Shown: in pieces, positions 31,937 through 38,260 of the stretch
How the letters are laid out: each line of letters begins with the position of its first letter
Position numbering within the stretch: position 1 is the first letter of the stretch
Assembly: GCA_015231265.1 (NCBI GenBank)
Contig: JADGBX010000006.1
Coordinates: 1 to 46,526, forward strand
Direction: 5' to 3'
Origin: Magnetococcales bacterium
GTDB taxonomy: Bacteria > Pseudomonadota > Magnetococcia > Magnetococcales > JADGBX01
DNA: 46,526 nucleotides
Position numbers and translations under genes: made by a program
The notes under the pieces: generated by a model
Seen by the model: the letters and a program-made list of their open reading frames with translations, nothing else
The model's database searches: none
Told to the model about the DNA's origin: nothing

Positions 31937-32012
<76 letters not shown>

Positions 32013-32122: not shown

Positions 32123-33166
32123 ATGGCAACCATCCGCAAGACACCTTCTGGCACCTGGCAGTGTCAGGTACGGAAACGTGGATACCCTTCTGTTACGAAA
32201 ACGTTCAGAAGGAAGCGTGATGCCGAAGATTGGTCCCGGCAAACCGAGGATGAGATGGCACGCGGACTCTACATAGACCGCAGCCGAGCCGAACGATTGA
32301 CGGTTAGTGAAGCCGTTACCCGTTATCTGAAAGAGGTCTCCCCGACCAAGTCACCAGAGACATCCAGGTCCGAACACTCCAAAGCAAAACATATCATCAG
32401 AGAATTGGGTGGATACTCGCTTGCCGGGCTCCTGCCCGAACGCGTCGCTCACTATCGGGATTCGCGATTGGAAGCGGCCAGTCAGAATCAAGTGCGCCTC
32501 GAGCTTGCTCTGCTCTCGCATGTGTTCACGACTGCGATGATGGACTGGTCCCTTGGGCTGCCTTTCAATCCAGTCGCCTCAATTCGGAAACCTTCCCCAG
32601 GGAAAGGGAGAAACCGACGCCTGACGGGAGACGAGGAAGAGCGTCTCATTACTGCCTGTACCCAACATAGTAATCCGATGCTCGGATGGATCGTCAGGAT
32701 CGCCCTCACCACCGCCATGAGGAAGTCGGAGATTCTGACGCTGGAGCGATCTCAGGTAGACTTGGGGAAGCGAGTTGTCACGCTAACACGCACCAAGAAT
32801 GGGGATACACGAGCGGTTCCTCTGAGCAAAGAAGCGCTGACTGCTTTTCAGGAAGCGTTACATTGGCCGGTACGGGTAATGGGGACAGACCTCCTTTTCC
32901 CCGGAGACCCCGGCAAGGATAGACAGCGCCGACCCTACGTCATCAACAAGGTCTGGCAGACTGCATTGAAGCGTGCAGGAATCGACGGGTTGAGATTCCA
33001 TGACTTGCGACACGAAGCAACATCACGTTTTGTCGAGGCAGGGTTATCGGATCAAGAGGTGTCTTCAATCACGGGGCACCGCTCTATGCAGATGCTGAAA
33101 AGATATACTCATCTTCGCGGGGAAGATCTCGTCAACCGACTCGATCACCTACAAGGAGCTGGTTGA
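32123..33166 (+). CDS. int: Tyrosine recombinase / integrase
   Basis: 347 residues, phage-type integrase. The N-terminal arm-binding part (MATIRKTPSGTWQCQVRKRG, FRRKRDAEDWSRQTEDEM) is the short Arm-DNA-bind form, followed by a core-binding helical domain (about 60-155) and the catalytic domain with the full set R200 (TTAMRKSEIL), K225, H293-x-x-R296 (FHDLRHEATSRF), H319 (TGHRS) and nucleophile Y328. GGAAGAGAG precedes ATG 32123. It lies directly beyond the tRNA 3' end and reads into the foreign-looking region, as in tRNA-integrating elements. Confidence 0.95.
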   Translation: MATIRKTPSGTWQCQVRKRGYPSVTKTFRRKRDAEDWSRQTEDEMARGLYIDRSRAERLTVSEAVTRYLKEVSPTKSPETSRSEHSKAKHIIRELGGYSLAGLLPERVAHYRDSRLEAASQNQVRLELALLSHVFTTAMMDWSLGLPFNPVASIRKPSPGKGRNRRLTGDEEERLITACTQHSNPMLGWIVRIALTTAMRKSEILTLERSQVDLGKRVVTLTRTKNGDTRAVPLSKEALTAFQEALHWPVRVMGTDLLFPGDPGKDRQRRPYVINKVWQTALKRAGIDGLRFHDLRHEATSRFVEAGLSDQEVSSITGHRSMQMLKRYTHLRGEDLVNRLDHLQGAG

Positions 33167-33353
33167 TCGTTGCCAGAGGATATCGATAGGATCGTCCGAC
33201 TCTGATACGAGAATCGTAAATCGCTTTCCAGAAGGGGTCCGGTTTGATGCCGATGGCCCGGTTCCGAAGGAATGCGGAAAAGGAAGAGACTTTTCCAGTA
33301 TACCCAACCAGTTCACACAGTTCTTTAGCGTTGAGAAACATACTCCTGCTCAT
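33132..33353 (-). CDS. Small excisionase-like protein
   Basis: 73 residues, overlapping the end of int by 35 bases on the opposite strand. A strong ribosome site GGAGAG lies 4 bases before ATG 33353. The sequence (MFLNAKELCELVGYTGK, ...RIRVGRSYRYPLATINQLL) has the helix-turn-helix-plus-wing outline of AlpA/excisionase-type or DUF4224-like phage proteins: an ELCELVGYTG helix pair, then a basic RVGRSYRYP segment before the last helix. Position next to int supports a recombination directionality factor. The family match is by eye only. Confidence 0.5.
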   Translation of the reverse strand: MSRSMFLNAKELCELVGYTGKVSSFSAFLRNRAIGIKPDPFWKAIYDSRIRVGRSYRYPLATINQLLVGDRVG

Positions 33354-34517: not shown

Positions 34518-34521
34518 TCAT
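34273..34521 (-). CDS. Possible 82-residue coupled ORF, unknown
   Basis: Its ATG (34521-34519) overlaps the TGA of the upstream 202-residue gene as ATGA, which is the only support. The protein is basic and glycine/serine-rich, has no recognisable domain, and may be a truncated remnant. Confidence 0.25.
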   Translation of the reverse strand: MTVHSDLFRTLVHSSERKSGAGKYASGVYSDPLSEGTPGGRDSTKRSIVFLDRGWAIGLVSMFTPGRRGISAGNSPLLCRVQ

Positions 34522-35126
34522 GACAGATTGGAACGGTTCAATACGTCGCCTTTTGCATGTATCGTGTCACAACAGGTTTGCTCGTATTTAGGGACAAGGC
34601 GGCGATACTTGTCGAGGAGTCTCTGAGCGTCTTCGTAACAGTATCCACGATCCAACAAATGTTTGCGAGCAACCACACATGATTTATCCCTTGGGTGGAT
34701 TGCGGCACCCTTGACCCTTTTCACGGCAACACCCCGACCAAAAAGGCAGGATCTATTCTCCTTCCTTTCATGGAGAATCAGGAATACCAATGCTTCATCA
34801 GCGTGGGCATCACGAATATCACGTCTGAGGATTCTGTTGGCTTCTGCCTCTGAACGGACCGTCTTGTCCGGCAATGCCCCTCCCAAAGCAACCGTAAGGG
34901 ATGGTGTCTTCCTGCCTGCACAAGTGAAATGCTTCGAGATCTCCCCGGCTTTGTCCCAGGGTCCTTGGAACTGAATGATGCCCTTGTTCTCATACACGTT
35001 TATGATGACGCCGTTGTCGGCGCGAAACTGCTGCAAATCTTCGATCTCCTTCCAGTATCCGGCAATGCCCAACTCCTTTATGCGTTTCCGAACTGGGCAA
35101 CCCAGCTCACTTAATGGAACTATCAT
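34518..35126 (-). CDS. Unknown 202-residue element protein
   Basis: ATG 35126 has GGAGG 5 bases upstream; the frame to 35165 lacks support. The composition is that of a real soluble protein. The N-terminal part (LGCPVRKRIKELGIAGYWKE) leads to a strand pair, NGVIINVYENKGIIQFQGP, which recalls the short beta-rich lead found before some TIR-like or nucleotide-signalling domains and in DUF3378-like folds; this is a weak resemblance. The rest (RSEAEANRILRRDIRDAHAD, LDRGYCYEDAQRLLDKYRRL) is helical. It follows parB on the same strand after 353 bases. No function can be assigned. Confidence 0.65.
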   Translation of the reverse strand: MIVPLSELGCPVRKRIKELGIAGYWKEIEDLQQFRADNGVIINVYENKGIIQFQGPWDKAGEISKHFTCAGRKTPSLTVALGGALPDKTVRSEAEANRILRRDIRDAHADEALVFLILHERKENRSCLFGRGVAVKRVKGAAIHPRDKSCVVARKHLLDRGYCYEDAQRLLDKYRRLVPKYEQTCCDTIHAKGDVLNRSNLS

Positions 35127-35479
35127 CTTGTCCTCCGATATGCTGAGTCCCGTACCAGGTCTCACTGTTATGATTCGTTGAGAATCTGCTCTTCCAATGG
35201 AATCCCTCCCAACTGTCGGATCCCAAATTTCATCGCACCATCAGCTAAGTCGAAAATCAGATCGACTGGGCTCTGCTGACTTCCACATATGATCAGGATT
35301 TACCTATTGCCGCCCTACAGGTGACAGCCTTTGATTGGTTGTTGATCCCCACCAGCTGCACAAAAATCAGCCCCTTCAGATTCCGACAACCGAGTGCAAA
35401 TAATATCGTCTATGTTTGGTTCAGGAGGAGAGTGTTCCCCATGAACCTGGATTAGAGATATTGATCACTGGGAACGCTT
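35127..35479 (-). other. Non-coding gap between parB and the 202-residue gene
   Basis: 353 bases with no supported gene. It should contain the promoter of the 202-residue gene. I see no strong hairpin or repeat. Confidence 0.4.
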
Positions 35480-36490
35480 TCAGGTGTCTGAAACGTCATC
35501 ATCTTTGCCTTCGGTTTCAGTATTCAAATCTTCGGTCTCGTCATCAGTTTCTGAGAACTCAATCCCAAAAGCGTGTTCTGCAAACTCGTAAAAGTCCTCC
35601 TCTCCATCGAAGTCCTCATCAATGACCTGCTTCAAGGCCTTGCCAAACATGACCAACGTACTTTTCTGTGCTTGATCATTCCCTGAGAACCGTGCCAGAA
35701 ACTGTCTAACTTCGTGTTTGTACGACTCCACTTCAAGGACGTCATTTGTGCTGATCCTGTCATGCACCGTCGGCATCAGATCGACAATTGCTCTGTGGAT
35801 AGATTCCTTCTCTTCCGGGACGAGTCCCTCAGCTTTGAGAATCCGCTTCTCCAGGTTGCCAACAGCAGTGAGAATCGCCTCTGCCGGCGATCTCTTCTGT
35901 TGCTCCTCGTCATTCCGTTGAGGTTCGCTCTTCTCATCCAACTTCCTCTTGTATCCGTTGATAATGCGACGCTGCTCCTTCGGGTCCTTGGCCCTTGCCG
36001 CCTTGACCAGAAGCTTCTGAGGTATGTTGTTGTCTTTCCTGAATTCCTGCTTGATCTCGTCTGGCAACTTGGCGAGAGAGTTCAACTCGGAGACCGTCTC
36101 TGGTGATCTATTGATGAGACCAGCCATCTCTATTTGCTTAAGTCCACGACTCTCCATCAACGAGTGCAACGCCTCTCCCATTTCAATGGCCGATAGGTCT
36201 TCCCGTTGGAAGTTCTCGATGATGGCAATCACCGCGGGATCCTTATCGGTGAAATGCACTGGTACTTCCTTCAAGCCGATACGTTTGGCAGCCTCCATCC
36301 TGCGATATCCGCACACAAGGACAATGTCGTCCCCCTCTTTCCGGCAGCCGACTGGATTGATAATCCCGTGATTTTTTATTGAACTGACCATCCCATCGAT
36401 CTTCTCCCATCCCGACTCCTTTCTGGGGTTCACGTCTGCATCAATCCGAATATCCGCAAGCGGGACCATGGCGAGTTTGCTGTCTTTCAT
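35480..36490 (-). CDS. ParB/Spo0J-family partition-like protein
   Basis: 336 residues with a near-perfect AGGAGGT 8 bases before ATG 36490. The N-terminal ParB/Srx CTPase fold is clear: VPLADIRID, CGYRRMEAAKRIGL (61-74, the GxRR box) and IIENFQRED (91-98, the ENxQR box). A helix-turn-helix follows at about 116-140 (LKQIEMAGLINRSPETVSELN). The C-terminal half is charged and ends in an acidic tail rather than a standard dimer domain. There is no ParA nearby, so it may act alone as a DNA-binding clamp or regulator of the element. It follows the rep-like gene by 84 bases. Confidence 0.88.
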   Translation of the reverse strand: MKDSKLAMVPLADIRIDADVNPRKESGWEKIDGMVSSIKNHGIINPVGCRKEGDDIVLVCGYRRMEAAKRIGLKEVPVHFTDKDPAVIAIIENFQREDLSAIEMGEALHSLMESRGLKQIEMAGLINRSPETVSELNSLAKLPDEIKQEFRKDNNIPQKLLVKAARAKDPKEQRRIINGYKRKLDEKSEPQRNDEEQQKRSPAEAILTAVGNLEKRILKAEGLVPEEKESIHRAIVDLMPTVHDRISTNDVLEVESYKHEVRQFLARFSGNDQAQKSTLVMFGKALKQVIDEDFDGEEDFYEFAEHAFGIEFSETDDETEDLNTETEGKDDDVSDT

Positions 36491-36573: not shown

Positions 36574-37959
36574 TTAATTACGATTGCGACGACGTGGTGT
36601 GTTCCTGCACTTCTGAAGAACGGCGAGCAGAAATGCCTGAATGGTTCGGGCGGACACTCCCTCATCGCTGGAAACGACGTTGAGAGCAGCAATACGTTCG
36701 CGCCTGATCCAGTTGGCAACGGTGGTGACGTTTCTTGATGAATAGGGGATGCGAACGCGTCTGCACGGCGCATCCCATTCACCCAGACGCTGCAATACGT
36801 GCTGCGTCATGGGGTGACGATTTGCCTCGGGATTCAGGAGTACGATGGTTCCGGTGGCAGCATGGATGTTCAGTTCATGGGCCATGACAAGCCGCTTATG
36901 GGCATCCTTGATCCTCCTGTCTACTGGCTTGAGATCAGGGGTTCTGGTATCGCGGACCCGGGCTGTCCAGCCGGTGACGCGCACCTGCTCTTCTGCTCCG
37001 ACTCTCTGAACGACTCTGCCGACAGGGTGGGTGGAGTCCGCGATCAGGCAGACGGGATAGGTATTGATGGGGAGCAGTTCCGCAAGCAGCGTGGGCCACT
37101 GTTGCCACAGGGATTCGTTCTGCACCCACCAGTGGGCACTCTGCCGCAGACGGTGACGGTAGAGTTTCTCGGTCTTCGGTTCCATACTCTTCAGGCGACG
37201 CATGGCGCTGAGCGGACCTCGCAGCCGACAAGCATCCAGGAAGTTGAGAAAGTGGATGTCGTTACTGGAAGTGTCACTGCCGATCTCGCCTATAGAAACC
37301 TTGTCAAAGGGATTGCGTATGGAGAACAACTCATGGTACTTGAGGCCGGTTCCACGTCCGATGACCTCCACCCGTGTAACATCATGAGGGGGAACAGACT
37401 TACGCTTGGACAAGAGGCACTGCCGACGGTTGTAGACAGTGACTCCCCACTTGCTGTTTTTGGAACCAGGATAGATTGTTTCCACACGCCCGAACCGATC
37501 CGAGTAGAGACCTGTGGCTTGCTTCTGTTTGACGTAGACTCGCAAGTTATCCAGGAGCACAGTGGCAATGTCGATGTAGATCTCAATCCTGAGAATCCGT
37601 GCACGAGTCAGTATCCCGATAGGGTCTATGAGGATGCGCTTGAGTTTCGACAGTATGTGAGAGATTACTCGGCTATCGCATGAGGTATGGTTCCACTCCA
37701 GCTTGAGGAAAGCCTTGGAGGAGCGGTAGGGATCACATGCTATTTCGATGGGTGTGGAGAACTCATCGCCATTCATCTTTCCTTGGATAGAGCGAAGGCA
37801 ACGATACCCCCGATGATTCCATGGTGCGGATACTTCTTCGGAGAGCTTTTTGTCTTCCTGTAACCAAGTCAGGATTCCCTCTGCCTCCTCTTCGGTATCC
37901 ACGTCGATACCAATGGAGACTCTGTCTATACCGAGTGTGAGATCAGGTGTTCCAGTCAT
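36574..37959 (-). CDS. Rep_trans-like replication initiator with SLOG-like C-terminal part
   Basis: 461 residues from ATG 37959 (GGAGG 5 bases upstream). The N-terminal 230 residues resemble the Rep_trans replication initiation family of rolling-circle plasmids, CTX-type phages and Tn916-type elements: RIEIYIDIAT, ETIYPGSKNSKWGVTVYNRR and VTRVEVIGRGTG follow the TxYxGSRxS...RiYnK...TRvEv pattern. After a helical linker, the last 130 residues look like the second half of SLOG/YpsA-type (putative molybdenum carrier) proteins: ATGTIVLLNPE, TQHVLQRLGEWDAPCRRVRI, ANWIRRERIAALNVVSSDEG. Probably the replication protein of the element. Both assignments rest on pattern recognition. Confidence 0.55.
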   Translation of the reverse strand: MTGTPDLTLGIDRVSIGIDVDTEEEAEGILTWLQEDKKLSEEVSAPWNHRGYRCLRSIQGKMNGDEFSTPIEIACDPYRSSKAFLKLEWNHTSCDSRVISHILSKLKRILIDPIGILTRARILRIEIYIDIATVLLDNLRVYVKQKQATGLYSDRFGRVETIYPGSKNSKWGVTVYNRRQCLLSKRKSVPPHDVTRVEVIGRGTGLKYHELFSIRNPFDKVSIGEIGSDTSSNDIHFLNFLDACRLRGPLSAMRRLKSMEPKTEKLYRHRLRQSAHWWVQNESLWQQWPTLLAELLPINTYPVCLIADSTHPVGRVVQRVGAEEQVRVTGWTARVRDTRTPDLKPVDRRIKDAHKRLVMAHELNIHAATGTIVLLNPEANRHPMTQHVLQRLGEWDAPCRRVRIPYSSRNVTTVANWIRRERIAALNVVSSDEGVSARTIQAFLLAVLQKCRNTPRRRNRN

Positions 37960-38146
37960 CTGTTCCTCCAATCACGAGAGTTGCTTCGATTGGAGGCAAA
38001 TTAGTAACGAGGGAACTTTGCCCTATTATTAAAAGATATGATGGAATCTGTGGGGGGAATTCCTCACGCCGGTAACCGACGTATCCCACGACAGGAGAGA
38101 GTCAGCGACCCACTCAGGAAGTACCGTCACATGACGGTTTGGAATG

Positions 38147-38224
38147 AGTTCGGCGCGCCGAACTTTCCTCCCATTGATTGCGAAGAGATCGTGGGGAACA
38201 ACACCGAGTTCGGCGCGCCGAACT
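38147..38224. promoter_or_regulatory. Two identical 18-bp palindromes 60 bp apart
   Basis: AGTTCGGCGCGCCGAACT occurs at 38147-38164 and 38207-38224, each a perfect palindrome followed by TT(T), centres exactly 60 bases apart (about six helical turns). They lie about 190-265 bases upstream of rep. Candidates: ParB-binding centromere, replication origin, or Rep operator. Confidence 0.85.
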
Positions 38225-38230
38225 TTTCTC

Positions 38231-38260
38231 TGCGTATACGACATTGCTTTGCGTATACGC
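38231..38260. repeat. Pair of CGTATACG palindromes
   Basis: TGCGTATACG at 38231-38240 and GCGTATACGC at 38251-38260, two turns apart, follow the 18-bp palindromes at once and extend the same symmetric cluster. Confidence 0.75.

Follow-up and report, generated by a model that had tools for sequence, protein, structure and literature searches.

A predicted Rep_trans nicking protein with an added, strongly basic cpYpsA-type SLOG domain in an integrated element of a Magnetococcales bacterium

The analyzed window, a contig stretch of 46,526 nucleotides from a Magnetococcales bacterium, carries a gene (here called rep) whose product very probably joins a Rep_trans nicking domain to a cpYpsA-type SLOG domain. 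Both domain assignments were computed, as were the intact catalytic residues in the first domain and the missing pocket motifs and basic charge of the second, and this combination of domains would be new among replication initiators. The rep gene (36574..37959, minus strand) lies within a single uninterrupted frame that spans 36574-37971, with its stop codon at 36574-36576. Translation probably begins at the ATG at 37959, a few bases downstream of a GGAGG; this gives a protein of 461 aa, and residues are numbered from there. A second in-frame start option, the TTG at 37971, is positioned at the Shine-Dalgarno sequence. The open frame, the ATG and the GGAGG bear out the gene limits and protein length given in the original prediction.

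The N-terminal domain of the rep protein gave no direct match in Pfam, PHROGs or NCBIfam, and its assignment was derived via its relatives. Three of these (L002, L003 and L004) were found in a search of about 400 genomes of the same phylum; they are 21-22% identical to the rep protein and match the Pfam family PF02486 with E values of 1.5e-6, 0.094 and 5.5e-4, respectively. A fourth, L054, which is from a different family of the same order, was added by a profile search. The profile built from the four relatives, with the query left out, matched the rep protein at E 3.8e-24 (the best of 5,000 shuffles scored 5.1 bits) and matched the solved initiator RepSTK1 (4CWC, 4CWE) at 5e-9. As judged by these comparisons, residues 1 to ~300 are a diverged Rep_trans (PF02486) domain that is recognizable only via relatives, and the prediction that the N-terminal part of the protein is Rep_trans was correct. 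With the helices that the family has at its own C-terminus, this region is taken as residues 1-301 (37057..37959, minus strand), based on the relatives' profile, the alignment and published residue roles (PMC4797284). In one further genome a Rep_trans relative was present as three broken or duplicated pieces inside about 3.5 kb.

The catalytic set of the family could be placed in the rep protein as D12, E126, D130, T161/Y163/G165, Y176, R196 and E198, among which D12, D130, Y176, R196 and E198 were invariant in an alignment of nine proteins. These include three acidic metal ligands (D12, E126 and E198), the conserved pair D130/R196, and the T-x-Y-x-G...Y motif with the catalytic tyrosine (T161, Y163, G165 and Y176). 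In the RepDE/RepSTK1 structures the metal ligands include D9 and E196, and D120, R194 and the catalytic tyrosine were also described (PMC4797284); D12 and E198 of the rep protein correspond to D9 and E196 of RepSTK1, D130 and R196 to D120 and R194, Y176 to the catalytic tyrosine, and T161, Y163 and G165 to T164, Y166 and G168, with the third metal ligand being E126 in the rep protein versus D116 in RepSTK1. The rep protein therefore resembles the members of PF02486 (RepSTK1, RepD/RepE, pT181 RepC and the MOB_T relaxases) in its catalytic core, metal-binding acids and tyrosine, but it differs from them in having an additional C-terminal SLOG domain, in the absence of a direct Pfam match and in two active-site residues, R177 and K181 of RepSTK1, which are replaced by T174 and R178. 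From the alignment, these replacements may alter origin nicking or religation. Proteins of the Rep_trans family nick the origin and remain covalently attached to the 5' end. With its catalytic tyrosine and metal-binding acids intact, the Rep_trans domain of the rep protein would likewise nick the origin of its element and stay covalently on the 5' end.

The element is an integrated plasmid-like element consisting of a tRNA-Phe gene, an integrase, a possible excisionase, an ORF for a 215-aa protein, parB and rep. The tRNA-Phe (gaa) gene (31937..32012, plus strand) is next to prmA, a pairing that is also present in five relatives, and is the likely integration site. It is followed by a tyrosine integrase gene (32123..33166, plus strand), assigned by database profile matches, and by an adjoining gene for a 73-aa small protein (33132..33353, minus strand) that is possibly AlpA/excisionase-like, based on a weak match to the excisionase family phrog_4764 (E 0.24). 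A ParB-family partition protein, also identified by a database profile match, is encoded 83 bp downstream of rep (35480..36490, minus strand), and no ParA gene was recognized in the scanned ORFs of the element. The 215-aa ORF (34518..35165, minus strand) follows parB in the same orientation; it had no Pfam match, and its residues 26-110 weakly matched PDC-S35, a candidate defence family of PADLOC (2e-6). A search for a direct repeat of the end of the tRNA-Phe gene, which would mark attR and the right end of the element, found none. In another Magnetococcales genome (locus L236, 2563-2849) a contig that carries a tRNA-Phe gene next to prmA ends within the integrase gene that comes after it, of which only the start is present. 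Since the start of that integrase is similar to that of the element's integrase (53% identity over 38 residues) and follows the same tRNA-Phe/prmA pair, the tRNA-Phe gene beside prmA is probably a shared integration site.

The location of rep in an integrase-bearing element, together with the active site that Rep_trans and MOB_T proteins have in common (PMC6499999), raises the alternative that the rep protein is not a replication initiator but a MOB_T conjugative relaxase, a group also covered by PF02486. Such a reading bears on the N-terminal domain and would be compatible with the fusion, but we consider it rather unlikely: the N-terminal HTH that is a mark of the MOB_T architecture (PMC6499999) is absent, there being no room for it ahead of a catalytic domain that starts near residue 8, no conjugation genes were recognized among the scanned element proteins, and the rep-parB order is plasmid-like. 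Our preferred reading is that rep encodes a rolling-circle initiator (or nicking relaxase) belonging to a small integrated element.

The relatives that are closest in length stop near residue 300 of the query, and the remainder of the rep protein is thus an addition, placed after the family's own C-terminal helices. On comparison with known Rep_trans C-terminal regions it was not one of them. Residues about 302-453 (36601..37056, minus strand) are instead assigned, from profiles, an AlphaFold model and a PDB match, as a SLOG domain of the cpYpsA type in which the ligand motifs are degenerate. The direct match to Pfam cpYpsA (PF12694) was weak, at E 0.026 with the whole protein and E 0.008 with the last 158 aa (profile positions 22-129 of 145), and neither reached the curated cut-off (16.4 bits against a gathering score of 26.2 bits). 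The C-terminal domain scored 27.7 bits (single-sequence E 7.7e-11) against a profile that was built from 31 cpYpsA proteins of Magnetococcales and refined after that first weak match, while the best of 20,000 shuffles scored 11.8, the best unrelated ORF 4.6 and the reversed sequence negative. With a cpYpsA profile from 189 loci the score was 29.9 bits (hhalign 95.6%, E 1e-8), and the cpYpsA alignment covers nearly the whole domain. An AlphaFold (AF2) model of the C-terminal domain had a pLDDT of 89.7, a pTM of 0.84 and the expected alternation of strands and helices, and its top PDB match was the cpYpsA structure 3IMK (E 1e-5, TM 0.71/0.73); as the alignment supplied to AF2 consisted of 70 cpYpsA relatives, neither this fold nor the match to 3IMK counts as evidence separate from the sequence result. 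For the whole protein modeled from its single sequence the pLDDT was 39, too low to be informative. The best named viral matches of the C-terminal domain were a DprA-like protein and a "molybdenum cofactor carrier" protein.

The original prediction had assigned the last 130 residues to the second half of a SLOG protein. The SLOG identity stands, and a Rossmann-like fold is indeed predicted, but the restriction to half a domain does not, as both the alignment and the model span a whole one. On sequence and model together, residues ~302-453 make up an entire SLOG domain of the cpYpsA type, which we describe as diverged, and not as canonical cpYpsA, because the pocket motifs are missing. That the match is due to chance, or that the in-frame join is an assembly chimera, is in our estimation extremely unlikely. 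A sub-threshold direct Pfam match, the refinement of the profile and the origin of the sequence in a fragmented MAG of 459 contigs are what could be said for such an explanation; against it are the far lower scores of shuffles, decoys and the reversed sequence, the nearly domain-wide alignment, and the presence of both domains in one stop-free frame. Moreover, no separate cpYpsA gene that could have been mis-joined was found in this genome (80% complete). Genes for cpYpsA are present in 32 of 48 genomes of the class; in Magnetococcales their products stand alone, at about 155-260 aa. When the C-terminal piece was searched against genomes of the same order, two of the domain-spanning matches were true stand-alone cpYpsA proteins. 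The remaining weak matches to the C-terminus were considered noise, and one at E 5e-4 was dismissed as chance since the protein looks like a GntR/FadR-type regulator.

The fusion is known from one sequence. The SLOG domain was absent from eight intact relatives, the four used for the profile among them, and likewise from all 19 Rep_trans matches (L002 and L004 being two of these) in 399 genomes of the phylum. Direct searches of phages, plasmids, viral contigs and named genomes with the whole protein produced no relative, the sole plasmid match being to a Bacillus plasmid at E 0.04. The earlier statement that no Rep_trans-SLOG fusion had been described also held: no description of one was found in the open-access literature searched, nor were "Rep_trans" and "molybdenum carrier" found in one paper. 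SLOG domains in phages have been reported fused to HTH, HNH, exonuclease, helicase and guanylate kinase domains (PMC9503650). The rep protein resembles those with HTH, HNH, exonuclease and helicase partners in that SLOG has become attached sporadically to a nucleic-acid enzyme of a mobile element, and differs from them in that Rep_trans is not among the partners quoted from that study. Separately, cpYpsA domains were observed at nine loci within phage proteins of about 800-2,000 aa; these very large proteins resemble the polyvalent proteins of the same study.

The C-terminal domain is like cpYpsA (PF12694, "putative molybdenum carrier") in its near whole-domain alignment and predicted fold, but unlike it in being fused to a nicking enzyme, in lacking the ligand motifs and in being much more basic. 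Of the positions that at least 80% of the cpYpsA set have in common, 48 in all, it retains 14, including GW, N364, T371, P398, W417, L426 and N427. Absent are SGGQTGxD, YxxRT, the aspartate of SDGT, GGT and AGPRES, such that no glycine-rich cpYpsA motif is left, in a survey that is biased by the retrieval of the cpYpsA loci with two of those motifs. The net charge of the domain is +14 and its pI 11.4, compared with a mean of +1.5 and a maximum of +12 for 158 cpYpsA domains, net charge being crude evidence for DNA binding. With the pocket motifs lost and the charge strongly basic, a conventional nucleotide sensor is unlikely and binding of nucleic acid is plausible. DprA, which binds ssDNA and loads RecA, is also a member of the SLOG superfamily. 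Its Rossmann domain binds both ssDNA and dsDNA via basic residues (PMC4489622), and the cpYpsA profile also matches DprA structures (1e-4). The C-terminal domain and DprA have the superfamily fold in common and DprA provides an example of a DNA-binding SLOG domain, the resemblance being one of kind only.

In view of the fact that the fold is retained, the pocket is lost and the domain is strongly basic, we infer by analogy that the SLOG domain is a nucleic-acid-binding (DprA-like) or partner-binding module which would help the initiator to hold the origin or the displaced strand. This is the function we prefer, and for the fusion architecture and such a binding role taken jointly we see about an even chance. 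The architecture shows a SLOG fold taken up by a nicking enzyme after loss of its pocket, and DNA binding by the domain would make it a second case, beside DprA, of the SLOG fold being used on nucleic acid. The C-terminal domain could also be a passive remnant, or a plain oligomerization tail without a specific ligand, given its strong divergence from every sampled cpYpsA, its single occurrence and relatives that presumably function without it. We regard this as possible but unlikely in light of a frame that is intact to the end, the retention of structural positions (GW, N, T, P, W and LN) and the confident model.

The original prediction had proposed a nucleotide-sensing module, which is possible but is not indicated by a domain that lacks the cpYpsA pocket motifs and is unusually basic. 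The SLOG superfamily does include sensors of nucleotide ligands, with cADPR binders in the YpsA-like clade (PMC9503650), and domains fused to enzymes often regulate their enzyme, so that the domain might still bind a nucleotide or ADP-ribose-type signal and thereby gate nicking or excision. However, SGGQTGxD, YxxRT, DSD, GGT and AGPRES are all lost, and apart from the weak PDC-S35 match no defence or NAD-pathway gene was recognized alongside, and we judge such sensing to be improbable. It is very doubtful that a rebuilt pocket lets the domain respond to a nucleotide signal of cellular or immune origin and so ties replication or excision of the element to the state of the host. Were the domain to sense a ligand, it would directly link cell state to the rolling-circle replication of an integrated element.

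Upstream of rep, an 18-bp perfect palindrome, AGTTCGGCGCGCCGAACT, is present in two copies (38147..38164 and, 60 bp further, 38207..38224), with no third copy in the genome even when one mismatch was allowed. The 321-base region upstream of rep folds as ssDNA far better than shuffled sequences (z -6.6), a value to which pairing of the palindromes with each other contributes. The palindromes could be ParB sites (parS), operators or origin stems. A copy of the palindrome in a viral contig was considered unrelated as it is inside a tailed-phage region. Beside the second palindrome, at 38222-38259 of the window, are two TGCGTATACG-containing repeats that are 19 bp apart.
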